From a virus: DNA of 20,259 nucleotides. A program made the translations under genes and the position numbers. The stretch spans positions 1 through 20,259 of IMG/VR virus record IMGVR_UViG_3300047300_001119. One strand, 5' to 3'. The notes under the pieces are model-generated. The model searched no databases. It was not told the DNA's origin and worked only from the letters and a program-made list of their open reading frames with translations. Positions 1-20,259 of this stretch are shown here, piece by piece (the first letter of the stretch is position 1; each line of letters opens with the position of its first letter).

Positions 1-3000
1 ATTCGCAAAACATTTACAGGTATTACTGGAGCCGCCACTATTGCAACAACAGCCGTTACTAGTTTTGTTGGTGCAATACAAGGGTATTTGGGACTTGCTT
101 CCGCTATTGTGGGTATCGGTGTTTTAATTGATTCATGGTTTACTAAAAATGGTGAACAGGCAAAAAATTTTAGCGACGCTATCGATACTTCCACAGAAGC
201 AATCAAAACATATGGACGCACTTTAGATTATTTAGCAAAGCAAGACACTAGTCAAATATTTAATTCTAGAAATCTTACAGCGCAAGCAAATGCTGTCCAA
301 GGTTTAGTTGATGGACTTACTAATCTTCGCGAAAAGTTTCAAGAACTAGATAAAGCTACTACAGGCTGGGATCGATTTACCGATAGTTTAGCCGCTATGG
401 TAGGTAAAGACCAGTTAAGTAAATTTGCCGAAAGCAGCGTAAAAAATATTGTTCAAACTATTGCATCTATTGATAGCGATGTTGCCAGAGAAACTGCATT
501 AAAAACAGTAACTGCAGAATTAGGTGCTGCTGGAGATAACCAAATCGCATGGTTAGAAGCTATTCAAAAGGGTGGGCCTCAAGCAGCCAAAAAAGTTGAA
601 TTAGTAGAAAAGACATTAAAGAAAGTAGCAGATCAGCAAAGCGTAGTTGCTAGTCGTAGTACAGAATTTGACGAAAATATTAAAAAATTAGGCGATACCT
701 ACAAAGACTTTACTAAGTCTGCTATTGACCAATCACCTCTTACAAAGTTAGGTGATGATATGGCTGCTAGTTCTGTTAAGATGGTAGGGGCATTAGCAGA
801 TCCAGTAGCAGGTATTAATAGCATGAAAAAGCTACTGGAAGATACCTCTGTAATTGGCATTTTTAATCCAGCATTAGTACAACAACTAAATAGATTAAAG
901 CCTGAAATAGACGACATGAATAAAAAGCATGGCGAAACAGCTATTCAGTTAAAGAAAGCTCGTCAAGAAGTTTTAGGTTTAGAATTAGAGTATCAAAAAC
1001 TAAATAAAGCATATGGCGGTGTAGATCGAGACATGGTTATTGCCCAAGGCGGCGATACTTCAGGACTAGACGCTCTGGAAGAGGCTGCGGATAGGATGAA
1101 CACAAAGCAAGCAGAAATACTTGCTTTGACTAAAAAAGATACTGAAGAACGTGCAAAAATTGCCGAATTAATGAGTAGCACTAAGTTTAAAGACTTAGCC
1201 GTTGACGCATTTATTCAAGGCAGTGCCTTGGTATCACGAGCACTAAACGATGCTTTTGAAAAAGCACGTATTGAACTCGGCCGAGGCATCCTTAGCATGA
1301 TGGGAAGTATTCCTGGCATAGCTAAGCTAGAATCTGATTTAAATCAGCGTGACTTTGCTCAGCAAAAAGCAATGTTGAAGCTGCAAGAGGATATGCTTCG
1401 CGCACAACATATGCAGACAGCGGCTACCATGGCTAACACAGCAGCTTTGAATCTTAGTAATGCTAGATTAGCTGCAGGTAACATGGACGCAAGGGACCGC
1501 AGACTTTCTGCAGGAACAGATGCTGTAGGTAATGCACAAGCAGAAGTAGATTTAACTAATAAGTATCAACAGTACATAAGTGGTAATAAAACTGGAAAAG
1601 ACTCAGAAAACTTCTTACAAGAGCTAAATAATGCAATGGCAACGTTTGGTAAAGACTCACCAGCGGTTGCTGCAAATATCAATAGTATGAGAACTGCTGT
1701 TAAAGCCTTTATGGATACCGCAGCACAGCGTGCCAAGATTACAACAGGTGAACAGTTAGATAAGTTAAAAACTGAAGCTAAGGTTCGGGATGATATTAAT
1801 ACACTAAGTGCAGATGCTTTAAAGTTACAGGCTTCTGGTATTGATTCTCAGATAAAAGAACTTGACCAATTACAGCAACAAAATGGTAAATTAACCGATG
1901 CGCAAGCACTACAAAGAAGTTACTTAGAAAGCCAACAAGCCCAAATTGAATACGATCTTCAAATTAATGCTATTACTGCAGAGCGTGCAAAATTTGAGTT
2001 GTACATTGATGGTTTGAAAAAGGCAGGCATTACAAAAGGTTTAGAAGAGCTACAAACTAACTATGCCTTGTTGGAAAATAGTAAAATTCTTGGAGCATTT
2101 AAAGCCAAGACAGAAAAGGATACTGCCAGTGATTTAAAACGACGTCAAGAATTAAACAAAAATATGTTTGATGCAGAACAACGGTCTTTAGATAATCGTA
2201 AGTCTGCCCAAGAAACATTAAACATACTTAATACTGACAGGTTACAAGTCGCAGAGTTAGAGTTCCAGTTGGCTGAAAAGCGTGGCGGGTTAAACCCAGA
2301 CTATATAGCTTCTCAGAAACTGGCCCTAGAACTTAGCAAACAACAGCAAGAGGAAACAAGTAAGTTAGCTAGTTTAGAGACCAACTATTTAACAGGTATC
2401 AACAAGCTTCGCAAAGAATACTTAGATACTGCTCCTGGAGAAAAAGGTGCTGCTCGTCGAGCTGAAATTGCAGAAGAAATGGCAAATCTTGGAGCACGAT
2501 ACGAAGCTGAGTACCAGGGAGTAACCAGAGTGGCAGAAGCAAAACGTAAATTGTCACTAGAAGACTCACAATACTCTCAACGAGCATTAGCTTATGGCGA
2601 TGTTTTCGAGAAAGCTTTCCAGAGCATGGGCGACGTAATGGTTAACTTTGCTAAAACTGGTAAACTTGCTTTCAATGATCTCATTGCTACTATGCTTGAA
2701 GGATTGTTAAGATATGAGGTACAATTGCAAGCCACTTCAATGTATGCAGCATTTAGACCAGGACTAATGACTTTTCTTACCTCAGCGTTTGGTGGCGGAG
2801 GGGCCGGTGGATCCGGGGGCTCTAATCCTATGTATGCACTAGACTTTGGTGGGGTTAAATTAGGCGGTCCTAATGCAACTGGTAATGTATATGATGGTGG
2901 TTTAGTGAAGTTTGCCAAAGGTGGTGCATTTACTAATTCTGTTGTAGATACTCCTACTATGTTTAAGTTTGCAAAAGGCACTGGATTAATGGGCGAAGCA

Positions 3001-3267
3001 GGGCCAGAAGCTATTATGCCCCTAAAGCGTGATAGTAACGGAAACTTAGGGGTACGCTCTGGAGGTGGAGGCAATGTTGACATAGTTGTTAACAATTACG
3101 GAACCGAAAAAGCCACTACTAAAGAAACAGTTGACTCGCGTGGTAACCGTCGTATTGAGGTTACTGTTGGTGATATGGTTGCACAAGAGGTAACTCGTAC
3201 TGGCAGCTCAGCACAGACAGCATTTACTAGTACATACGGTACACGACCCGCACTAGCAAGGAGATAA
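1..3267 (+). CDS. Tail tape measure protein, lambda H-like (5' partial)
   Basis: The frame is open from base 1, so the gene is cut at the window edge; 1088 residues are visible and the first in-frame TTG (88) is not a credible start. The protein spans the tail tube, sets tail length and is probably delivered to the host membrane during DNA entry. Visible support: an Ala/Thr/Val-rich hydrophobic stretch in the first 45 residues (possible membrane segment); about 800 residues of charged, Gln/Lys/Glu-rich helix and coiled coil; a C-terminal block near 2600-2760 (FEKAFQSMGDVMVNF, then TGKLAFNDLI) like the lambda tape measure C-terminal domain; a Gly-rich linker; and the motif GEAGPEAIMPLKR near 2992-3030, a hallmark of these proteins. 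An AAGGAG site (3258-3263) at its end serves the next gene. Its size fits a tail longer than lambda's. Identity is near certain; the N-terminus is missing. Confidence 0.95.
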   Translation: MRKTFTGITGAATIATTAVTSFVGAIQGYLGLASAIVGIGVLIDSWFTKNGEQAKNFSDAIDTSTEAIKTYGRTLDYLAKQDTSQIFNSRNLTAQANAVQGLVDGLTNLREKFQELDKATTGWDRFTDSLAAMVGKDQLSKFAESSVKNIVQTIASIDSDVARETALKTVTAELGAAGDNQIAWLEAIQKGGPQAAKKVELVEKTLKKVADQQSVVASRSTEFDENIKKLGDTYKDFTKSAIDQSPLTKLGDDMAASSVKMVGALADPVAGINSMKKLLEDTSVIGIFNPALVQQLNRLKPEIDDMNKKHGETAIQLKKARQEVLGLELEYQKLNKAYGGVDRDMVIAQGGDTSGLDALEEAADRMNTKQAEILALTKKDTEERAKIAELMSSTKFKDLAVDAFIQGSALVSRALNDAFEKARIELGRGILSMMGSIPGIAKLESDLNQRDFAQQKAMLKLQEDMLRAQHMQTAATMANTAALNLSNARLAAGNMDARDRRLSAGTDAVGNAQAEVDLTNKYQQYISGNKTGKDSENFLQELNNAMATFGKDSPAVAANINSMRTAVKAFMDTAAQRAKITTGEQLDKLKTEAKVRDDINTLSADALKLQASGIDSQIKELDQLQQQNGKLTDAQALQRSYLESQQAQIEYDLQINAITAERAKFELYIDGLKKAGITKGLEELQTNYALLENSKILGAFKAKTEKDTASDLKRRQELNKNMFDAEQRSLDNRKSAQETLNILNTDRLQVAELEFQLAEKRGGLNPDYIASQKLALELSKQQQEETSKLASLETNYLTGINKLRKEYLDTAPGEKGAARRAEIAEEMANLGARYEAEYQGVTRVAEAKRKLSLEDSQYSQRALAYGDVFEKAFQSMGDVMVNFAKTGKLAFNDLIATMLEGLLRYEVQLQATSMYAAFRPGLMTFLTSAFGGGGAGGSGGSNPMYALDFGGVKLGGPNATGNVYDGGLVKFAKGGAFTNSVVDTPTMFKFAKGTGLMGEAGPEAIMPLKRDSNGNLGVRSGGGGNVDIVVNNYGTEKATTKETVDSRGNRRIEVTVGDMVAQEVTRTGSSAQTAFTSTYGTRPALARR

Positions 3268-3269
3268 AT

Positions 3270-3635
3270 ATGCCGATATCATGGCCAACTATCCATAACT
3301 TTCCGCAAAGCCCCCAAAAGGGGTTTTCGGAAAGTATTGGTGTAAATATTATACGCTCGCCAATGGATGCAGGCCCAGCTAAACAGCGTAGACGTTCGCA
3401 ACGCCCTAGTATGATGGATGTTAATTTTATATTAACAACACAACAAACTCAGGATTTAGAATCATTTGTATTCAATGATTTAGAAGGTACTAAGCGATTT
3501 AACTTTCAACATCCGCGACTAAACACAACCGTAGAAGTACGTATAGTACCTCAGTCAGAGGGCGAGTTATTTCGCTTACAATACTTAGCTCCTGGATACT
3601 GGCAAGCTAATTTAAAATTTGAAATATTACCATGA
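3270..3635 (+). CDS. Minor tail protein, lambda M-like
   Basis: 121 residues, close to lambda gpM (about 109). It begins two bases after the tape measure stop, with AAGGAG at 3258-3263, and overlaps the next gene by ATGA. The N-terminus has the pattern seen in this family: W-P, a Phe-Pro turn, KGFSES, then a basic KQRRRSQR patch near residues 38-45, followed by a beta-rich C-terminal part ending in KFEILP. In lambda, gpM acts with gpL, K and I to complete the tail tip around the hub and the tape measure; the same place in the gene order is occupied here. The function is inferred from position, size and sequence style rather than from a catalytic motif. A 16-bp RNA hairpin lies inside the reading frame at 3298-3335. 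Confidence 0.75.
   Translation: MPISWPTIHNFPQSPQKGFSESIGVNIIRSPMDAGPAKQRRRSQRPSMMDVNFILTTQQTQDLESFVFNDLEGTKRFNFQHPRLNTTVEVRIVPQSEGELFRLQYLAPGYWQANLKFEILP
3298..3335 (+). other. Strong RNA hairpin inside the M-like gene
   Basis: The arms ACTTTCCG (3298-3305) and CGGAAAGT (3328-3335) pair perfectly. Inside them, after a single bulged C3306, AAAGCCCC (3307-3314) pairs with GGGGTTTT (3320-3327), closing a CAAAA loop. That is 16 pairs with one G-T wobble and one bulge, 28 bases downstream of the start codon. No T-run follows, so it is not an intrinsic terminator. It could be an RNA stability, processing or translation-control element for the mRNA joining the tape measure and tail-tip genes. The structure is seen in the sequence; the role is not known. 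Confidence 0.7.
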
Positions 3636-4162
3636 GCAGATTAACTCGACTAAGCCCAGAAGCAATTCGTGCAATGTTTTCGTCCGAAAGCGACCAAACA
3701 TTGATTATGTTATTAACCATTTATGATCCTGCTGACGAATCACAGGTGGTGTTTCGTTTTGCTGACAACTACACACAACGTATATCTTCGCTGACTACAG
3801 AAGACGAAGTCGTATATGGTGTATCTAGTCGAGGCCATGATTATGCTTTCTTGCCAATGGAATTGAGTCTACCCTCAGAACAGGATACTGGAGTAGGCTC
3901 CTGTACCTTAAAACTTCAATATGTTATTCGCGAAGCTATTGAAGTAATACGTACAGAACTTAATAAACCAACTAAAGTTCAAATTGAATTAGTTCTTAGC
4001 GGTTCTCCTAATGTGGTAGAAGCAGTATTTCCAGGGTTTTATATTACTTCGGCCGTATATAACGCAGATTCAATTAGTTTTGATTTAACCATGATTAATT
4101 ATGCTCGGGAACCTTTTCCGTGTTATAATTTTATTCCAAGCTATTTTCCGGGGTTATTCTAA
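3632..4162 (+). CDS. DUF1833-like minor tail protein in the lambda L position
   Basis: 176 residues. The ATG overlaps the stop of the M-like gene (ATGA) and its own stop overlaps the start of the hub gene (TAATG), so translation is coupled at both ends. The N-terminus (SRLTRLSPEAIRAMFSSES) followed by a beta-rich body with an I-x-L-x-I-x-D-P-x-D stretch resembles the family annotated DUF1833 in many phages, which sits between M-like and K-like genes. It probably takes the part of lambda gpL, a tail-tip component, but I see no iron-sulfur-type cysteine set: the only cysteines are two isolated ones, near residues 91 and 167. The C-terminus is aromatic and proline-rich (CYNFIPSYFPGLF). Family assignment is from recall of sequence style; the role is inferred from order. 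Confidence 0.7.
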   Translation: MSRLTRLSPEAIRAMFSSESDQTLIMLLTIYDPADESQVVFRFADNYTQRISSLTTEDEVVYGVSSRGHDYAFLPMELSLPSEQDTGVGSCTLKLQYVIREAIEVIRTELNKPTKVQIELVLSGSPNVVEAVFPGFYITSAVYNADSISFDLTMINYAREPFPCYNFIPSYFPGLF

Positions 4163-7100
4163 TGGATTACAATAAATATATAGGATTGCCTTATGCTAGT
4201 AATGGTCGTACAGAGTCTGGCGTAGATTGCTGGGGTTTAGCTTGTTTGTTTTACCGCGACGAGCTGGGCATTGAACTACCAAGCTATTCAGAACTATATT
4301 CTACAGCATCAGACCCAGAAGTTGTTAATGCAATTAATGCTAACCGCGATAACTGGCTACTGGTTACTGAAGCAGTACCTGGTGATTTATGCCTTTTTAA
4401 TATTTACGGTGAACCCGCTCACGTAGGTATTTATGTCGGTGACAATAAATTTTTACACGCACGCGAAGGCCGCGATAGTGTTATTGAATCACTATCAAAT
4501 CACCAATGGTCGAAACGATTCCAAGGGTTCTATACTTATAGCCGTCAATCACAAGTATTGGTTGCAGGATCTCCACACCCATTAAAAACTCAAGTTGTTT
4601 ATGATTGGACTTTAGCGGGAACTACTGTTCAAGATTTTGCCAACTATGTAAATACCAAGTACTTAGTTAGTGAGGCCTATGCTTCCCAGCTAGCTGTGTT
4701 AGTTGATGGCCAGGTAATTCCACGCGAACAGTGGGCAACTACTGTTTTGCAAGGTGGCCAAACTATTGCTTACAGATCTGTTGCTCAAGGTCGTGCAGGC
4801 AGAATACTGCTAATGATTGCAGTTGTATATATTGCTCTGCAAACTGGTCAGTGGATGGTCGGTAACGAATCTATATTCGGTGCAGGTGCTACAGGATCGG
4901 CTGCGGCAGGAAATATTGCTGCCAATTCTTTTACATACGCAGCAACTATTACAGCCGTTAATATGGCAGGTATGGCATTAATTAATGCTATTGCTCCTGT
5001 GCGTATGCCTACACAAAATAATCCTGGCAGTGCTGCAAGTCTTAATCTGTTCTCAGGTTCTAGCAATCAGGCAAACCGCTTTGGCGCAATCCCTGTTGTC
5101 CTTGGTAAAATGCGTGTAACTGGTGTATTGGGTGCTACCCCATACATTGATACTTTAACAGACACTAGTTTAATTAACATGTTGTTAATTTGGGGTTTTG
5201 GCCCATTACAGGTAACAGATATTTGTGTAGGCACAAGTCCAATTAAAAATTTCTATGGTCTTGAAGAGTTTGGCCAAGACTTCCCTGCTCCAGTCACTTT
5301 AGGTGGATACGCTACTGATGATGCCACGGCGTTTAATAAACTGTACCCACGAGATGTTGAACAGCAACAAGTAAATGTACTATTAGTGAATAATGCCGAA
5401 GACGGCAACCCTTGGCAAAATGTGGTTTTAAATCAAGACAATACTACGGCTATTGATATCGCACTAACCTTTCCCGAAGGCATGCGACAACTGGTAATTA
5501 GTGGTAACGATGCTGGTAAAGTACGCGAAGCAACAGCAGCCGTTGAATTTCAACTACGCAAGTTTGACTCTACCACAAATGCATTTAGTGCGTGGACTAC
5601 ACGTGCCAGTTATACACATGGTTCAACTGGCACTTCTGCTACAGGTTATACAAATACTATTGGCCCAAATATTGGGTATACTACCCTTATTCCCGGCAGT
5701 GGTGATAACGGAGACACTAACGCTTTTACACCACTTTATCAGTGGTTTACCTACGCACTTAGTGAAACTGGTGAGATTAGACGCTTCGATGGGGCGGCTA
5801 CCCAAAATAAAAATGCTGATCCTTCTGCAGAATTACTAGCAATATATAGAAGTGGCAATTATGCTAATCTATTAGGTAATGACGTAGATCCTCTTACATA
5901 TAGTAGAATACCTCAAATACCTCAAAATGGATATGTAAAGCTTTATACTATCTGTGTTTTTCAAAATGCAGTTGAAGAAACTATTAATCACGTAGAAGGC
6001 TATGTAGGTTATACTGGGCTTGGATTAACTACTACGATCGCTACTACTTATAATGGATATACCGATAGTACCGAAAATATAGGGATAAAGGTAGAAATTG
6101 CTCCTGGAATAGTTTCGCGCTTTAGTTCTACACAACCAGCAGTTGGACAAGAAACGCCTGTATTTAGTACTAGAAGTATGTCTGGTATAGTAAGTAGGAC
6201 TAACTACAAGTTTTGGGCAGACTTTACTAATACGCACGCAGTCTGGGATGCAGCCCAGCCTAGTGCTATGGAGTTTGATAAAACTCAACAAGTTAATTTC
6301 CCTTATACTGGGTATTATAAAGTAGAAGCCAGTGCGGATGATGAAGGCAGCGTGCTAATTAATAACAGGCAAGTTGTCGGTATACCTCTTCCAGGGTATT
6401 CAAGCACAGTTGTTAATCTAATATATTTAGAAGCAGGAACTTATCCAGTTAGAGTAAAAGGTAAAAATACTAAATATGGTGATGCTGGTGTTGCGTGTTA
6501 TATAACATACACTGAAAATGGCGGGCTAAATAACTTAGCTACTCCTGAAACTATTATAAGTTTTGGCAGTCCTGGGTTATATCATAAGCGCAAAGATGCT
6601 TTTAACTTTGTTTATAAAATGAAAAATTTAGCTCCTGGTCAGTACGAAGTTCGAGTACGTCGTGTAAACGATGACGTGGTTGAGCCTTCAGAAGAGTTAC
6701 GGAACTATAACAAAGTCTCTATATTGAGTGTTACAGGTTATGCTAACCCAATAGACCCTGCAACCGGACTACCGCAAGGCCCCTTAAACCCAATACCAAA
6801 CTCATATTTAGCACGCACAGCACTAAGATTGCAAAGTACTAGTAAGGCCAATGGTAACGTTGATGGGGTTAACGCTATAGTGCAGACAATTGCCCCAGAT
6901 TGGAATCGTACAACACAGACTTGGGTAACCCGCCCAACAAGTAATCCAGCAAGTTTGTTTGGCTATGTATTAACACACCCAGCCAATGCCTATCGTATTA
7001 AACCAGCAGATATTCTTGAGCAGATTGATGTAGCGGCGTTACAGATCTGGCATGAGTACTGTGATGACAATGGCTTTGAATTTAATAGTGTTATATCACA

Positions 7101-8673
7101 AACCCAAAGTGTAATGGATGTGCTACGAGATATCTGTGCTGCCGGTAAGGCAAGCCCTACTTACGTAGACGCTAAGTGGTCTGTTATTATTGACAAGCCG
7201 CGCGCTTATGTAACTCAGCACTTTACGCCACATAATTCCTGGGGATTCGAATCTACAAAGGTACTTCCTAGACTACCAGACGCATTTCGTGTTACTTTTG
7301 CAAATGCCGAAAAAGCTTATCAAGCAGATGAGATACTAGTATTTAATTTTGGTAAGAACAAAAACACGGCAGAAGTTTTTGAAGAATTAAGTTTGCCAGG
7401 TGTAACAAGTGCACGTCAAGCAAAACACCTTGCTCGATGGCATTTAGCACAAACCAAGCTACGTCCAGAAATTTATACACTTAATGCCGATTTTGAGTAC
7501 TTAGTTTGTAGTCGCGGCGATTTAGTTCGCGTAAGTCACGATGTTCCTTTATGGGGTACAGGAAGTGGTCGCATTGCAGCAAAAAGTGGCTCTACACTTG
7601 AACTAAGCGAACAAGTATACTTGGAAGCTGGAAAAACTTATCAAATACGGGTTCGTTTAAATTCCATTTCTACTACAGCGGGTAGCGATAGCGCGTTACT
7701 AACACTACAACCTATTACCACCAGTAATTGGTATAGTACAATTACGCTAAATGCTGCCGTTCCTGCAAATGTTGAAGCGGATAACTTGTATATGATTGGC
7801 GAAATCGCAAAAGAATCCCAGCAATTAATAGTGCTTAGTATCGAGCCTGCTCCTAACATGAGTGCGCGCCTAACACTTGCTGACTATAGTCCTGAAATTT
7901 ATTCACTAAACATGAATTCCGACACGGATTTACCGGCTTTCAATGCAAATATCTCTGGCTCTAGTACAAGTACTATACAAAATACTATTACTCAAGCACC
8001 AGTGATTGTTGATGCTATCAGTAGTAGTGCTATTGCTGAAGAAATATCTCGTGGTACGTATCAAAACGTGTTAATGGTAAGTTTTGCGAATGTACAAGGA
8101 TTAACTTCTCAAGCACAACGGATACAAGTTCAAGTTGTATTAGGCGATCAAGAATTTGATTCAGGTAACTTATTTGGTGTTTATAGCATAGATAAGTCTA
8201 CTGGAAGTCTAAGTATTCCGGGCTTGAAAACCCTTACAATTTACAAAATTCGCGCACGCTATACTAACTCAACTGGTAGCGTAAGCGGACCCTGGTCTGA
8301 TACATTCTACACAACTAGTGAAGGCAAAACAATTAGCGGATCAATTGCACCAAACTTAACACTAGACTTAGATCGTACCTTTATTGTTGCAAAACCAGAT
8401 GCTGCCTTGCAGACTGCTGATTTTTCAACTTATGAATATAGGTTGTATAAAAATACAGGTACTTCAGATTTTTGGGACTTAGATTTGACAACAAATAACA
8501 TTAAAGTAGTAAAAAGTACTGGAGAGGCTAGGTTTGATCTTCGCGAGCAACCAAGACCCAGACTTTCAGCAGCGGGAGTTACTTATAGAGTGGCTTGTAG
8601 AGCATTAGATAAACAAGGTAATTATAGTACTGAAAGTACTCTAGGAACAATAGTTGTTAGAACTATTACTTAA
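4162..8673 (+). CDS. Fused tail-tip protein: NlpC/P60 peptidase, I-like domain and J-like hub, with PA14-like insert
   Basis: 1503 residues, one open frame, start coupled (TAATG) to the L-like gene. Residues 1-125 form an NlpC/P60 peptidase: Cys23 in GVDCWG, His87 in PAHVGIYVG and His99 in FLHA give the usual Cys-His-His set, consistent with cutting peptidoglycan peptides as lambda gpK is thought to do. Residues 141-207 look like the small ubiquitin-like fold of gpI. Residues 213-226 and 255-279 are hydrophobic. GAIPVVLGKMRVTG (308-321) is the gpJ-type hub start; about 890-1140 resembles the Phage-tail_3/J hub domain; 1285-1390 and 1395-1503 are fibronectin-III-like. Between them, 684-787 resembles a PA14-like domain. 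In lambda K, I and J are separate genes, so this is a three-part fusion. Peptidase and hub calls are strong; the I-like and PA14 calls are moderate. Confidence 0.88.
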   Translation: MDYNKYIGLPYASNGRTESGVDCWGLACLFYRDELGIELPSYSELYSTASDPEVVNAINANRDNWLLVTEAVPGDLCLFNIYGEPAHVGIYVGDNKFLHAREGRDSVIESLSNHQWSKRFQGFYTYSRQSQVLVAGSPHPLKTQVVYDWTLAGTTVQDFANYVNTKYLVSEAYASQLAVLVDGQVIPREQWATTVLQGGQTIAYRSVAQGRAGRILLMIAVVYIALQTGQWMVGNESIFGAGATGSAAAGNIAANSFTYAATITAVNMAGMALINAIAPVRMPTQNNPGSAASLNLFSGSSNQANRFGAIPVVLGKMRVTGVLGATPYIDTLTDTSLINMLLIWGFGPLQVTDICVGTSPIKNFYGLEEFGQDFPAPVTLGGYATDDATAFNKLYPRDVEQQQVNVLLVNNAEDGNPWQNVVLNQDNTTAIDIALTFPEGMRQLVISGNDAGKVREATAAVEFQLRKFDSTTNAFSAWTTRASYTHGSTGTSATGYTNTIGPNIGYTTLIPGSGDNGDTNAFTPLYQWFTYALSETGEIRRFDGAATQNKNADPSAELLAIYRSGNYANLLGNDVDPLTYSRIPQIPQNGYVKLYTICVFQNAVEETINHVEGYVGYTGLGLTTTIATTYNGYTDSTENIGIKVEIAPGIVSRFSSTQPAVGQETPVFSTRSMSGIVSRTNYKFWADFTNTHAVWDAAQPSAMEFDKTQQVNFPYTGYYKVEASADDEGSVLINNRQVVGIPLPGYSSTVVNLIYLEAGTYPVRVKGKNTKYGDAGVACYITYTENGGLNNLATPETIISFGSPGLYHKRKDAFNFVYKMKNLAPGQYEVRVRRVNDDVVEPSEELRNYNKVSILSVTGYANPIDPATGLPQGPLNPIPNSYLARTALRLQSTSKANGNVDGVNAIVQTIAPDWNRTTQTWVTRPTSNPASLFGYVLTHPANAYRIKPADILEQIDVAALQIWHEYCDDNGFEFNSVISQTQSVMDVLRDICAAGKASPTYVDAKWSVIIDKPRAYVTQHFTPHNSWGFESTKVLPRLPDAFRVTFANAEKAYQADEILVFNFGKNKNTAEVFEELSLPGVTSARQAKHLARWHLAQTKLRPEIYTLNADFEYLVCSRGDLVRVSHDVPLWGTGSGRIAAKSGSTLELSEQVYLEAGKTYQIRVRLNSISTTAGSDSALLTLQPITTSNWYSTITLNAAVPANVEADNLYMIGEIAKESQQLIVLSIEPAPNMSARLTLADYSPEIYSLNMNSDTDLPAFNANISGSSTSTIQNTITQAPVIVDAISSSAIAEEISRGTYQNVLMVSFANVQGLTSQAQRIQVQVVLGDQEFDSGNLFGVYSIDKSTGSLSIPGLKTLTIYKIRARYTNSTGSVSGPWSDTFYTTSEGKTISGSIAPNLTLDLDRTFIVAKPDAALQTADFSTYEYRLYKNTGTSDFWDLDLTTNNIKVVKSTGEARFDLREQPRPRLSAAGVTYRVACRALDKQGNYSTESTLGTIVVRTIT
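6205..6525 (+). other. PA14-like domain inside the hub protein
   Basis: Residues about 682-788 of the fusion protein read KFWADFTNTHAVW, then a beta strand, VNFPYTGYYKVEASADDEG, SVLINN and later YPVRVKGKN. This order (an opening aromatic motif, F-P-x-x-G-x-Y, a D-D/N-x-G-S turn and a closing strand) is that of PA14 domains, beta barrels often used for carbohydrate binding. It lies between hub-type regions, so it probably projects from the tail tip. The assignment rests on motif order alone; another jelly-roll fold is possible. Confidence 0.5.
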
Positions 8674-8682
8674 AGGATAAGC

Positions 8683-11601
8683 ATGGCGGCACATTTATAC
8701 CCAGGCGTAAAATCATTACAGCTAGTATTGGATAGACCGTACGACGCTATTAGAACCACAGATGTTAGGGATGACCTAGCATCTGTGAAAGTGTGGTATT
8801 CACTAACCAGTGGTTTTAATCCTAATAATGGGGAAGGCACACTTGTGCCTTCTGGTAACAGTTTAAATGTAACTATTACAGGATTAACACCTAATACACG
8901 CTACTATGTAAAATATGCATTTATTAGTGCAATTGATGAAGATGAAATCGACCCACCTGGCCCAACAGGTCCTGGGTCTTATACTGTTTCAGAAGAGATT
9001 TCAGCAGTAGTATTAGAAGAAAATGTTAGTGTTTACGGATATTTAACAAACGACCCTACACCAGTAGTTACTAAAACTGACGGTACAGGCGGAGATTTTA
9101 CTAATGCTACAGGTGTTTTTAAAGTCTTTAACTTAAGCACTGAAGTTACCGGGGCAGGGCCGGTCTATGGAATCAAAGCCTTTAGTAACGATAACATTAC
9201 TAATCCAGTTATTAATGCTACAACGGGTGTTTACAGTTGTGAAGGACTAACAGATGATGGCGGCAATGTTACTTTTACAGCGACTTACAACAATATTACG
9301 GTAGAGCAAGTATGGAACGTTTACCGAGCTAAGGCGGGCGAAACCGCGCCGCTTATTCAGCTTAGTACACCTAATAAAGAATTTCATTATAAAGACCAGT
9401 ACGCTACTACATCACTAACAACATCAACAACTGTTACTGCACGGTTAGTAAATCTAGTAGGTACGCCTACCTTTACAGCCCAAGCTTACACCGAGACAAA
9501 TACTCTTTTAGGTAATATTGCGTTTACACAAGTAGATAATGTAATAACTATTACTGCCGCACAATTCAATCCTGTAGCCTATAATAATACTGTGCGAACA
9601 GTAAAAGTAACAGCTACATTGGGAAATGCAACTGACGTGATCACTCTTTATAGGATTAGTGATGGCTCAGAGCAAATTACTGTTGAACTTACAAATGAAG
9701 CAGTACCTATTCCTACTTACGCTGACGGTACACCTACTGAAAGTAGTTATGTAGGTAGTGGCACCACTATTCAAGTAAAAGAAGGTAACACTTATTTAAA
9801 TGTAGATAATATTGCTCCATATGCAAACGGCACTTGGACCATTTTACCTGGCGGAATTAATGCTGTAAATATTGTTTGCGATACAACTCCCTCAGTTGGT
9901 GGAAATTTTATTGATTTCAATCAGCATTCGGCCATGGATGTTGCTTTAGATACTGCTTATATTGATTATACTATTACTGGTAAAACAACTAGCGGAGTAG
10001 CTTTTACTATTGTAAAACGCCAAAGTTTTGCAAAAACAAAAGAAGGTATACAGGGAGCAACTGCCCGCTCCGTAGCAATTACAGCACCTGGTCAAGCTTT
10101 TATTACAGCAAAAAACACTACTACTGCTTATCCTGGCAGTATTACGTTAACTGCTGTACAAAGCAATTTTGTGAATCCACAATATACCTGGTTAGTTGAC
10201 GGATCCTCTAACTTCACTGGTATTGGCTCAGTAGGTGCAGGTGGTCAAACATTTACGCTCAATAGTTTTGCAGCCGTTGGTTCGAAAACTGTTAAAGTAA
10301 CTGTAAGCGAAACCGTTGATGGTGAAACTTTTTCAGTATACGATATATTTACCGTATATAGCTTACGAGAAGGCGACGATTCGTTTATTGCTGGCCTTTC
10401 AAATGAAAATCAAACTATTAGTTATGACAGTGCTGGTGATGCTAATACTGGACAGTTTCCTGTGCATAGTACTTTCTATGCAGTACTGGGAACTAATTTT
10501 TTAACTAGTTCTACTACTCCTGCAGTTACTTTTGCAGTAGATAGTTACAATGGTGGCGGAACTTGTACTATAACTGGTGCAGGTTATGTTACTATTGAAG
10601 CCCCGCTATCAGTTGATTCAGCTACAGCAGTACTAAGTGCTACTATCTATGCTGGTACTGCAAATGCAAAAACTATTACCAAGAGTTTAACACTCAACAA
10701 GTCCAAGGATGGTAAAGTTGGTGAAGGTATTACACAAGTATACCTACGTACAACAGGCACACCAGTAGCACCAACAGGGCCAGCGCTTCCACCTTCCAGT
10801 CCTGTACAATGGTATGCTACAATTGCCGAAATACCCGGTACAGATCCACTATGGACAAGCTTTGGTAAGCGCGCAGCGGGTAGCAACACTTATACTTGGC
10901 AAACTCCAGTACGTGTTGAAGGTACAAAAGGCGAGAGCTCCCCTCCATTAAAGAACGCAACTGGTTATTTATATTACGCTACCGCAACCACAACGCAACC
11001 TGACCCACCCTCAGCTTTAGGATATAATTTTCCTACAGGTCAATTTGATACTGTTACTGCTGGTTGGTATACTACATTTAATATTGTAGATAATCCAAGT
11101 GGTAAAATGTGGGCGGTTCGTTATAGTGTCCAAGAAGTTACCAGCGGTGTTAAGACTACACAAGTCATAGATATTAGTACTGCATTTACACATCAAAACT
11201 TTAATGGCTTAGTAACTTTTACCAATATTGATACTCAGGTAGCAGCTACTAGTACCGTTAGTAATCTAAATAATACTATCAGTACAAAAGTTACCAGTAC
11301 ACAAGCTACTGCACTTGCTAACTCAGCAATCGATAGCTCTACTACAGTTGCAGCAAAAGTTGCTAAAACTGACATTTACTCCACAGGTACTACAACTATT
11401 GATGGTGGTAAAATTACCACAGGTAGTATTAATGCTAACCGATTAAACATTGGATATAATACCGGCAATGCTAGTGGCAATCGAATAGTTATGGACGGAG
11501 CCAATAATAATATTCGTGTATACAATGCCAATCAGTTACGCGTTATTATTGGCAACCTAGATGAACCTGTAGGTGGCTGGCCAAACCAACTTTCAGCCTA
11601 G
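8683..11601 (+). CDS. J-like central tail fibre protein (C-terminal J half as a separate gene)
   Basis: 972 residues. It starts nine bases after the hub stop; AAAGGA (8672-8677) overlaps that stop and serves as ribosome binding site. Residues 1-115 are fibronectin-III-like (SLNVTITGLTPNTRYYVKY). The middle, about 120-680, is a chain of Thr/Val/Ile-rich beta domains separated by hinge motifs such as EGIQGATARS and SKDGKVGEG. Then comes a W-rich module (YLRTTGTPVAPTGP, WYATIAEIPG), a helical Ser/Thr/Ala segment at about 843-893 with the period of a trimeric coiled coil, and the turn TIDGGKITTGSINANRLNI (905-923), typical of the ends of lambda J-like proteins. It probably trimerises, extends from the hub and touches the receptor. 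It is rich in Thr and Asn and has few cysteines. The first 300 bases hold three hairpins. Confidence 0.78.
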   Translation: MAAHLYPGVKSLQLVLDRPYDAIRTTDVRDDLASVKVWYSLTSGFNPNNGEGTLVPSGNSLNVTITGLTPNTRYYVKYAFISAIDEDEIDPPGPTGPGSYTVSEEISAVVLEENVSVYGYLTNDPTPVVTKTDGTGGDFTNATGVFKVFNLSTEVTGAGPVYGIKAFSNDNITNPVINATTGVYSCEGLTDDGGNVTFTATYNNITVEQVWNVYRAKAGETAPLIQLSTPNKEFHYKDQYATTSLTTSTTVTARLVNLVGTPTFTAQAYTETNTLLGNIAFTQVDNVITITAAQFNPVAYNNTVRTVKVTATLGNATDVITLYRISDGSEQITVELTNEAVPIPTYADGTPTESSYVGSGTTIQVKEGNTYLNVDNIAPYANGTWTILPGGINAVNIVCDTTPSVGGNFIDFNQHSAMDVALDTAYIDYTITGKTTSGVAFTIVKRQSFAKTKEGIQGATARSVAITAPGQAFITAKNTTTAYPGSITLTAVQSNFVNPQYTWLVDGSSNFTGIGSVGAGGQTFTLNSFAAVGSKTVKVTVSETVDGETFSVYDIFTVYSLREGDDSFIAGLSNENQTISYDSAGDANTGQFPVHSTFYAVLGTNFLTSSTTPAVTFAVDSYNGGGTCTITGAGYVTIEAPLSVDSATAVLSATIYAGTANAKTITKSLTLNKSKDGKVGEGITQVYLRTTGTPVAPTGPALPPSSPVQWYATIAEIPGTDPLWTSFGKRAAGSNTYTWQTPVRVEGTKGESSPPLKNATGYLYYATATTTQPDPPSALGYNFPTGQFDTVTAGWYTTFNIVDNPSGKMWAVRYSVQEVTSGVKTTQVIDISTAFTHQNFNGLVTFTNIDTQVAATSTVSNLNNTISTKVTSTQATALANSAIDSSTTVAAKVAKTDIYSTGTTTIDGGKITTGSINANRLNIGYNTGNASGNRIVMDGANNNIRVYNANQLRVIIGNLDEPVGGWPNQLSA
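8757..8787 (+). other. 13-bp RNA hairpin early in the central fibre gene
   Basis: CACAGATGTTAGG (8757-8769) pairs with CCTAGCATCTGTG (8775-8787) around the loop GATGA, 13 pairs with one T-G wobble, 74 bases after the start codon. Two more inverted repeats follow: GAAGGCAC/GTGCCTTC around ACTT (8833-8852), and GACCCACCTG/CAGGT..GGGTC with a three-base bulge (8950-8978). No T-run follows any of them. Role unknown. Confidence 0.6.
8833..8852 (+). other. 8-bp perfect hairpin with tetraloop in the central fibre gene
   Basis: GAAGGCAC (8833-8840) and GTGCCTTC (8845-8852) are exact reverse complements around ACTT, and a flanking G-T pair can extend the stem. It lies 45 bases beyond the 8757-8787 hairpin in the same reading frame. 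It is listed because it clusters with the others; alone it would be near chance level. Confidence 0.45.
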
Positions 11602-11616
11602 TCTTAAGGAGTATTT

Positions 11617-11943
11617 ATGCCTTATGGAATGAAAATTTATGGCCCTGATGGGTACTCTGTTGCATATGACTCCACCAGTCCTGGTGGAGTCTTTGTACAA
11701 TTTGTTACCTTGTCACCAACTGCACCTACAAATACCCCTACTGTAATTAGCCTACCGGCTACTTATGCTAAGATGACCATAGAACTATACCCACTTATTA
11801 GTGGCGACCACACATATTACTTAACTCAAGGTAATCCCTACACAGGAGCGGCACCCTATATTACATACCAAAGTACGTATGCTAGTATAGCGGAAACTTT
11901 TGCAACTCGTAATCCAACAATTTTAATGGCGTTTGCTAAATGA
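11617..11943 (+). CDS. Small phage structural protein of unknown function, MxYG N-terminal type
   Basis: 108 residues. It starts 15 bases after the fibre stop with TAAGGAG at 11605-11611, and overlaps the next gene by ATGA. The N-terminus MPYGMKIYGPDGYSVAYDSTS resembles the start of the 1138-residue protein that follows (MSYGFIFKNENNETVIDDTS), so the two share a small module of the type seen at the start of many hypothetical phage tail proteins. The rest is beta-rich with many Thr, Tyr and Pro and no membrane segment. I know no function for it; position suggests a tail-tip or fibre accessory protein, perhaps a docking module or chaperone. A hairpin of at least 10 bp lies at 11668-11691. Confidence 0.75.
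   Translation: MPYGMKIYGPDGYSVAYDSTSPGGVFVQFVTLSPTAPTNTPTVISLPATYAKMTIELYPLISGDHTYYLTQGNPYTGAAPYITYQSTYASIAETFATRNPTILMAFAK
11668..11691 (+). other. Near-perfect 24-base palindrome inside the small structural gene
   Basis: GACTCCACCAG (11668-11678) and CTGGTGGAGTC (11681-11691) are exact reverse complements separated by only TC. As RNA this makes a stem of about 10 pairs with the loop GTCC; as DNA it is a near-symmetric site that a dimeric protein could bind. It starts 51 bases into the gene. The following CTTTG is too short a T-run for a terminator. Confidence 0.6.
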
Positions 11944-15374: not shown

Positions 15375-15412
15375 AAAATACCCTGCTCATTATATGGGCA
15401 GGGTATTTTTTT
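15375..15412 (+). terminator. Intrinsic (Rho-independent) terminator
   Basis: AAAATACCCTGC (15375-15386) pairs with GCAGGGTATTTT (15398-15409); two further pairs (T-G and C-G) tighten the loop to about seven bases. The stem ends in a T-run at 15406-15412. It lies 19 bases after the adhesin stop and just before a new promoter, so it ends the tail-tip and adhesin transcription unit. The A-run on the left arm gives a weaker stem on the - strand too, but no - strand gene faces it. Confidence 0.92.
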
Positions 15413-15415
15413 GCA

Positions 15416-15451
15416 TTGACAAGTTACCGCCCTTGTGGTATAATATATCAA
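15416..15451 (+). promoter_or_regulatory. Perfect consensus sigma70 promoter
   Basis: TTGACA (15416-15421), a 17-base spacer and TATAAT (15439-15444) match the bacterial housekeeping consensus at all twelve positions with the ideal spacing. Transcription would start near 15451 and run into the gene at 15568 and onward. The -35 box begins four bases after the terminator T-run. It suggests that host RNA polymerase drives the second half of this structural region as its own unit. Confidence 0.9.
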
Positions 15452-19136: not shown

Positions 19137-20259
19137 ATGAGTCAACTTATTGATCTTGGAAAATTACGCTTCCACTTCGCTGGTCAGTGGAGCAATGCCA
19201 CTACATACGAATCTAATGATATCGTTAAGTACGGTGGTAACGTATATGTGTATACATACGCATTAAAAACATCAGGAATCTTACCTACTGATACGGCTTA
19301 TTGGGCCTTGATGGTAGAAGGTTTCAACTTCTTGGGTTCTTTTAGCACAACCGGCAACTACAAGGTTGGTGACGGTGTTGCACACGGTGGCGTTGTGTAT
19401 GTTGCTATCAAAGACTCTATTAACATTACTCCTCCTAACGCAGTTTACTGGTCACGTTTCTTGGATGGTATTCAGTACGAAGGTACTTACTCTCCAACAA
19501 CTTCTTATCAGAAAAACGACGTTGTTAAGTACGGTGGTTCTATCTATGTTGCAAAACAAGACGGCACAAACAACTTACCAACAGTTACTGCATACTGGGA
19601 CAAGTTCGTTGAAGGCGTTAGCCCTCGCAGCGTTTACAACGAAGCTACAGCTTATGTACCAAATGACTTAGTTGCCTATGGCGCTAACATTTATCGTGCT
19701 AAAGTAGAAACTACTGGCAACGCTCCAAGCAATACAACTTACTGGGAATTGTACGTTGGCGGTATTAAGTTTACTGGCAACTACAGCGCTGTAACAGAAT
19801 ATTATGTAAACGATATCGTTGTTTATGGTAACAACATTTATCGTTCAAAGTTAACACAATCCAACACACTGCCTACAGTTGCAGCTAACTGGGAATTGTT
19901 AACTGCTGGTAACAGCTATAAAGGCACTTACGTAAATGCTACTGGATACTTCCAGGGCGATATTGTTAGCTACGGCGGCAATGTTTATATTGCGTTAGGT
20001 GTGACAACAGGTAACTTACCTACTGATGCTACTAAGTGGCAAGTATATAGTTCAGGCTTCTCTTACCAAGGCGTATGGTCTAGTGGTACCGAATATAAAA
20101 TCAACGAAATCGTTGGTTACGGTGGTTCATTATATCGTTCTAAAGCCGACAACCAAAACGTTAACCCAACAGTTACAGCTACTTGGGACAAGGTTGTTGC
20201 AGGATTTAAGCTGCGCGGTACATGGGCAACTGCTACACAGTACGCAACTGATGAAGTTG
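19137..20259 (+). CDS. Repeat protein with tandem carbohydrate-binding-like modules (3' partial)
   Basis: 374 residues are visible and the frame is open at the right edge. ATG at 19137 follows the previous stop by one base; GAGG at 19123-19126 is a weak ribosome site. After MSQLIDLGKLRFHFA the protein is built only of repeats: residues 16-66 (51), then six of exactly 49 (67-115, 116-164, 165-213, 214-262, 263-311, 312-360) and a cut eighth from 361. Each repeat has the pattern G-x-W/Y/F, a Tyr at about position 9, N/G-D/E-x-V, Y-G-G/A-x-V/I-Y, a Pro near 34 and a Trp near 39-40. This is the pattern of small chitin- or cellulose-binding type modules (CBM5/12-like), often strung together in phage tail proteins. 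It probably contacts a surface polysaccharide. Codons shift toward TTC, TAC, AAC and AAG compared with the genes before it. Confidence 0.8.
   Translation, partial: MSQLIDLGKLRFHFAGQWSNATTYESNDIVKYGGNVYVYTYALKTSGILPTDTAYWALMVEGFNFLGSFSTTGNYKVGDGVAHGGVVYVAIKDSINITPPNAVYWSRFLDGIQYEGTYSPTTSYQKNDVVKYGGSIYVAKQDGTNNLPTVTAYWDKFVEGVSPRSVYNEATAYVPNDLVAYGANIYRAKVETTGNAPSNTTYWELYVGGIKFTGNYSAVTEYYVNDIVVYGNNIYRSKLTQSNTLPTVAANWELLTAGNSYKGTYVNATGYFQGDIVSYGGNVYIALGVTTGNLPTDATKWQVYSSGFSYQGVWSSGTEYKINEIVGYGGSLYRSKADNQNVNPTVTATWDKVVAGFKLRGTWATATQYATDEV
19182..20259 (+). repeat. Tandem 49-residue (147-base) coding repeats, seven complete and one cut
   Basis: Unit starts are at 19182, 19335, 19482, 19629, 19776, 19923, 20070 and 20217; the first unit is two codons longer than the others. 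Protein identity between units is moderate and DNA identity lower, so they are not recent copies. The constant 49-residue period with no linkers suggests a rigid rod or a packed superhelix. Confidence 0.85.

Follow-up and report, generated by a model that had tools for sequence, protein, structure and literature searches.

Stem-loops of the REP type and other intercistronic stem-loops stabilise polycistronic mRNA. Locally selected RNA structures inside coding regions are likewise a known kind of element, described in a survey of viral orthologous groups (PMC6563262), and dsDNA viruses show reduced mRNA structure near their start codons (PMC3072339). The element described here is a hairpin near the start of a lambda-M-like tail gene. 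It resembles the REP-type stem-loops in its stable stem of about 16 pairs, the lack of a U-run and its place at a gene boundary of an operon, but where they occupy an intergenic gap, it is embedded in a translated gene, the gap here being 2 nt. With the surveyed coding-region structures (PMC6563262) it shares pairing-constrained synonymous sites, a signal against codon-preserving shuffles and compensatory changes; unlike them, it is a single very strong element in one gene of one phage group, whose presence is kept while its position and sequence turn over. As in the start-codon pattern (PMC3072339), the M-like gene keeps its first 24 nt free of strong hairpins, but a strong excess of structure follows immediately, where the score reported there is near zero or slightly negative. 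The phage lambda tail operon (H-M-L-K-I-J) is alike in gene order and in the fold of M, whereas the first 150 nt of lambda M hold no unusual hairpin, and 84.5% of its recodings fold at least as well. Literature outside subscription journals yielded no description of a comparable element at the boundary between the tape-measure and M genes.

The window analysed is a DNA stretch of 20,259 nt from an uncultured phage (positions 1 to 20,259 of IMG/VR record IMGVR_UViG_3300047300_001119). The hairpin is carried by a gene for a lambda-M-like minor tail protein of 121 aa (3270-3635, plus strand; phrog_384 match), which is preceded by the 3' part of a tape-measure gene (1-3267, plus strand; Pfam Tape_meas_lam_C; stop codon 3265-3267) and followed by a lambda-L-like minor tail gene (3632-4162, plus strand; phrog_396). 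The ATG of the M-like gene lies two bases past the tape-measure stop codon, and its strong Shine-Dalgarno sequence, AAGGAG (3258-3263, plus strand), lies within the 3'-terminal part of the tape-measure gene, outside the hairpin. The M-like protein had no match in Pfam, even at E 5, or in NCBIfam. Its AlphaFold2 model (pLDDT 87.5) found its best PDB fold match in the lambda tail-tip chain 8iyk_E (109 residues; E 2.5e-4, TM 0.66/0.73). Because this match is flanked by a tape-measure gene before and an L-like gene after, the M-like label is well founded, and the initial annotation was right to place an M-like gene directly after the tape measure. Residues 21-50 of the model have lower confidence (pLDDT 72-79) and are predicted to form a less rigid N-terminal arm ahead of the compact domain. 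Further downstream, a 1,503-aa protein (4162-8673) combines an NlpC/P60 peptidase, a ThiS/lambda-I-like part and a J-like part in one chain, and lambda K, I and J appear to be fused into a single gene there. Among sequenced phages, no nucleotide relatives were found, and prophage relatives were limited to distant matches (29-35% identity) in Treponema, Zoogloea and others.

The hairpin, ACTTTCCGCAAAGCCCCCAAAAGGGGTTTTCGGAAAGT (3298-3335), starts 28 nt downstream from the first base of the M-like start codon (A3270 of the ATG) and forms 16 pairs, from A3298-U3335 to C3314-G3320, with a single bulge at C3306. Its 5' arm (3298-3314, plus strand) consists of ACTTTCCG, the bulged C3306 and AAAGCCCC, the loop is CAAAA (3315-3319, plus strand), and the 3' arm GGGGTTTTCGGAAAGT (3320-3335, plus strand) pairs with 3298-3314, including one G.U pair (G3310-U3324). 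All pairs have a probability of at least 0.86 in three different contexts, and no other 40-nt RNA segment, on either strand of the 20-kb window, folds as stably (-23.4 kcal/mol). Dinucleotide shuffles of 3270-3360 were never as stable (0/200; z -4.4), and synonymous permutation inside the M-like gene likewise yielded nothing as stable as the native hairpin (0/5,000). Resampling by codon usage with the same peptide did not reach -23.4 kcal/mol in any of 20,000 trials (mean -6.2, sd 2.9). The stem is built of five rarer codons, namely CCG, CCC, GGG, TCG and AGC. The geometry given in the initial annotation, a 16-pair stem with one bulge starting 28 bases into the coding sequence, was thus recovered, and the codon-shuffled folding it had proposed as a check favoured the native sequence throughout. 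Its statement that the hairpin has no T-run and is no terminator also stands, as no U-run follows the stem and the site is absent from the terminator-like sites of the window. No Rfam family matched anywhere in the window at the gathering score, and a check for frameshifting or gene overlap found no ORF of at least 60 aa across the start of the M-like gene.

The same hairpin is retained in the window's clade, which comprises 15 distinct M-like genes with protein identities of 71-100%. Of the 13 hairpin codons, 11 are synonymously invariant, as against 19 of the 102 others in the gene, and a 36-nt core is nearly invariant. One of the two variable columns alternates between CCC and CCT, giving a G-C or a G.U pair. 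The other is the last Ser codon (AGT/AGC), which forms the end pair with an opposite A or G, both A-U and G-C versions being seen; several members (e.g., L083) have lost this end pair alone. Variation on both sides is confined to the end pair because the other pairs are nearly invariant. A mobile palindrome or repeat was also considered and rejected, the 36-nt pattern occurring in 19 viral contigs, once in each and always in the M-like gene. The initial annotation had held that the synonymous positions carry the test and that relatives with the same peptide and unpaired arms would speak against the hairpin. The former view agrees with the frozen hairpin codons of the clade and with recodings that are never as stable. 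As for the latter, five such relatives exist (L135, L142, L212, L215, and L216), which encode an identical QSPQKGFSES and reach only -2 to -6 kcal/mol at the site of the window's hairpin; the same five carry a strong stem (-18.5 to -25.1 kcal/mol) about 30 nt downstream instead, so their unpaired arms are no sign that the hairpin is meaningless. QSPQKGFSES therefore neither forces nor needs a hairpin at that place.

The wider set of relatives comprised 137 distinct genes from aquatic phage contigs, alignable without gaps between the PQxPQ motif and R[S/T], which yielded 122 distinct 135-nt regions. For the null, synonymous codons were exchanged column by column of the alignment, only between sequences that share the residue there (48 permutations), and hairpins of -18 kcal/mol or better were called strong. 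Strong hairpins were present in the first third of the M-like gene in approximately 73% of the 122 distinct sequences versus 6.6% after permutation, and the mean best fold was -20.1 versus -12.95 kcal/mol (permuted sd 0.23; 122 sequences). They were missing in 24 of the 122, about a fifth. Three alternative sites were found, around motif codon +5, at +16 (about 50 sequences) and at +24 to +29; the +5 site is used by the window's clade and, with different stems, by L061-L065, L072, and L143. Each lineage group is strong at one site, its own, and close to the null level at the remaining two, and the core sequence is not common to different lineages. On a tree built from the 3' part of the M-like gene, outside the hairpin region and with branch support not tested, the site class changed 22 times, compared with 68 times with shuffled labels. 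The hairpin class is therefore inherited, yet repeatedly replaced, and this change of position and sequence between lineages was unforeseen in the initial annotation. Since the hairpins of relatives are rebuilt from different sequences at different spots, it is an RNA shape that is preserved and not the protein only. Hairpin starts ranged from +25 to +126, the first paired base never lying before +25, and stems had 12-20 pairs, with a T-rich tail in 2 of 79 hairpins. Lineages with and without the hairpin showed no difference in tape-measure/M spacing or Shine-Dalgarno strength. The signal was not significant in lambda M, two Vibrio phages and Curvibacter phage P26059A, the last of which is a cultured relative without a strong M hairpin, and it was weak or borderline (2%) in a Bradyrhizobium phage.

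Covariation was analysed in 41 distinct sequences of the +16 type. Paired cells amounted to 84.5%, compared with 75.5% (sd 0.9) after shuffling and 31-48% with the partner slid, and double-changed cells numbered 55 versus 25.5, a value reached in 0 of 500 shuffles. At the third-position pair between Thr/Ser and Ala/Ser codons, A-U, U-A and G-C occurred 27, 10 and 2 times, respectively, and at that between Glu and Asp codons, G-C, A-U, G.U and A.C occurred 24, 12, 3 and 2 times, respectively. RNAalifold unaided recovered the outer eight pairs. The two cleanest third-position pairs showed 8 (pair 5-47) and 5 independent pair-keeping double changes on the tree; as the cell and tree counts depend on sampling and the tree has no tested support, their direction is taken and not their exact numbers. 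Under within-column codon permutation, Watson-Crick pairs were in excess (449 versus 389, sd 5.2), and both A.C (16 versus 30.4 expected) and G.U (36 versus 44.9 expected) were depleted. The compensating changes that the initial annotation had told readers to look for are thus present in the +16 type, where they are purely synonymous and recur independently on the tree. Across the 122 sequences, the best sense-strand hairpins were 1.8 kcal/mol more stable than the antisense ones (a sense-minus-antisense difference of -1.8), versus +0.24 (sd 0.24) in permutations. This sense-strand excess and the stronger avoidance of A.C than of G.U are modest and point to RNA, and the sense-strand excess, together with the synonymous signal, agrees with the RNA-level reading originally given. 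The hairpin is almost certainly a selected RNA structure.

Placement was scanned in 89 divergent loci with a threshold of -17 kcal/mol or better. The first 120 nt of M contained 55 hairpins versus 1.4 expected (89 loci), and the last 600 nt of the tape-measure gene contained 21 versus 13; in relatives, the tape-measure gene itself is not enriched. A second, weaker hotspot occupied the first 120 nt of L (15 versus 0.2 expected; 87 relatives), and J showed 15 hairpins versus 0.6 expected at 120-180 nt, the excess mostly fading past approximately 300 nt. This wider hairpin-rich zone, extending into the next two genes, was not anticipated by the initial annotation. At least one hairpin was found in the M-L-early-J zone in 90% of 86 loci, compared with 3-10% under the null. 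Strict compensation between the M hairpin and downstream hairpins was considered and not adopted, amounting to a trend only (20 of 29 loci without an M hairpin had one downstream, versus 30 of 57; p = 0.17). Four contigs of 78-102 kb contained 39, 30, 39 and 47 coding hairpins overall, versus 30.5, 17, 19.5 and 39.5 expected, respectively, and the M hairpin is listed in each of them.

Other coding hairpins were observed farther along the tail genes. A strong one, CACAGATGTTAGGGATGACCTAGCATCTGTG, lies at 8757-8787 of the window, about 70 nt into the gene after J, and at about the same offset in that gene, L010, L093, L095, and L097 carry a hairpin that is also strong but differs in sequence, TACCGGAAAGGTCCGTCGTGACCTTTCTGGTA. 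A further one, TGATGGCAGCTACGACCCTAAGGCTGTAGCTGCCATTA, recurs among relatives (L014, L022, L023, L024, and others) roughly 1,064 nt past the start of M, around 150 nt inside the NlpC/J-like gene; most of the lineages that have it show an M hairpin that is weak or at the third position. L027 and L062 have a different stem at a similar place.

Overall, selection acts on an mRNA stem-loop that is translated, tolerates shifts in position and lies just downstream of the tape-measure gene. The explanation that best covers the whole is a cis-acting stem-loop whose structure is what selection keeps, whatever its sequence and precise location, and that would serve as a barrier, to which we assign a probability of about one half. 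The specific mechanism proposed, a barrier to 3'-to-5' exonucleases that also sets a stability boundary between the tape measure and the tail-tip genes, is offered more tentatively. Translation of M would not be blocked, because the hairpin always begins beyond the footprint of the initiating ribosome. On transcripts that have been cut or carry few ribosomes, the hairpin would halt 3'-to-5' exonucleases; the barrier would thereby protect the very long tape-measure message upstream, and the boundary would split the stability of that message from that of the low-copy tail-tip genes M, L and J. A position-tolerant, motif-free hairpin just downstream of the tape-measure frame, as found here, is the arrangement expected of an mRNA-stabilising 3' barrier. 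The main difficulty is that, with the strong Shine-Dalgarno sequence of M, translating ribosomes would melt the hairpin, and a 3' barrier within a translated ORF is unusual. We suggest, with considerable caution, that a large group of aquatic tailed phages requires a boundary stem-loop somewhere past the tape-measure stop, which is repeatedly lost and rebuilt from other codons in M, L or early J and separates the fates of the tape-measure and tail-tip messages; the hairpins in L and J may just as well reflect separate elements, one per gene. Selection on single hairpins inside phage structural genes is rarely shown so cleanly. The roughly 40-fold enrichment, the synonymous compensation and the turnover among three sites indicate a required RNA structure at the tape-measure/tail-tip boundary, through which one can test how the relative amounts or lifetimes of tail messages are set within one operon of tailed phages, and they caution that synonymous changes in phage tail genes may not be neutral.

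A close rival, almost as good as the barrier, is a brake on translation elongation, by which the stem-loop would slow ribosomes early in M, L and early J and so limit the output of low-copy tail-tip proteins or time their folding with the tape-measure product. This is possible, though less likely than not. The onset of hairpins from +25 on, just past the initiation footprint, their recurrence near the L start and the fact that the hairpin stretch encodes the less rigid N-terminal arm of the M-like protein all suit a brake, as does the avoidance of structure by dsDNA phages only in the first 30-40 nt (PMC3072339). However, selection is strong at all three sites although the starts are scattered, and an initiation brake would be expected close to the start codon, whereas the J hairpins lie 120-300 nt in. 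A barrier would fit better than a brake on M initiation with the position tolerance, with the missing motif and U-run, and with a hairpin zone that sets in at the tape-measure boundary. A transcription terminator, attenuator or recoding signal is improbable: strong stems can make RNA polymerase or ribosomes pause, but a U-run is lacking here and in all but 2 of the 79 hairpins, 12-20 pairs make a short stem for RNase III, and the site has no overlapping ORF of at least 60 aa.

A DNA-level element, either a protein binding site or a cruciform extruded in double-stranded DNA, is similarly hard to reconcile with lineages that have no common core sequence, with the sense-strand asymmetry and with a core found once per contig and in every case in the M-like gene; its palindromic form and the near-invariant core in the window's clade are what speak for it. 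We consider equally improbable an origin by mutation without selection, in which quasi-palindromes that arose by chance are made perfect by template switching as the phage DNA replicates. Such events could change both arms at once and leave the near-perfect, lineage-specific stems that are often seen, but, being strand-symmetric, they do not predict the sense-strand excess. Nor do they predict that A.C is avoided more than G.U, that hairpins are restricted to the zone past the tape-measure gene, or that synonymous sites in the clade are frozen beside free neighbouring codons, and hairpin excess elsewhere in the four near-complete contigs is modest. The initial annotation had suspected that the hairpin partly reflects the codons of QSPQKGFSES. 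The S-P-Q-K-G-F codons do have a built-in partial complementarity, with weak versions in L012, L014, L024, and others. An unselected by-product of a conserved peptide and codon usage is nevertheless scarcely credible, given that none of the 20,000 recodings reached native stability, that the five same-peptide relatives are unpaired at the site, and that both the column permutation (6.6% versus approximately 73%) and the codon freeze in the clade argue against it.

Several other features were observed in the window. A perfect intrinsic terminator (15375-15409), with 16 pairs followed by TTTTTTT, occupies the gap between two gene blocks; directly after it lies a perfect 12/12 sigma-70 promoter with an extended -10 (15416-15444, plus strand), faced by an 11/12 promoter on the other strand (15469-15442). 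A palindrome, GACTCCACCAGTCCTGGTGGAGTC (11668-11691), about 50 nt into a short gene of 108 aa, is stable on both strands. The gene running off the end of the window (19137-20258) contains many repeats of about 45-50 aa (NDIVKYGGNVYV-like), and its product resembles a repeat-built tail-fibre or carbohydrate-binding protein.
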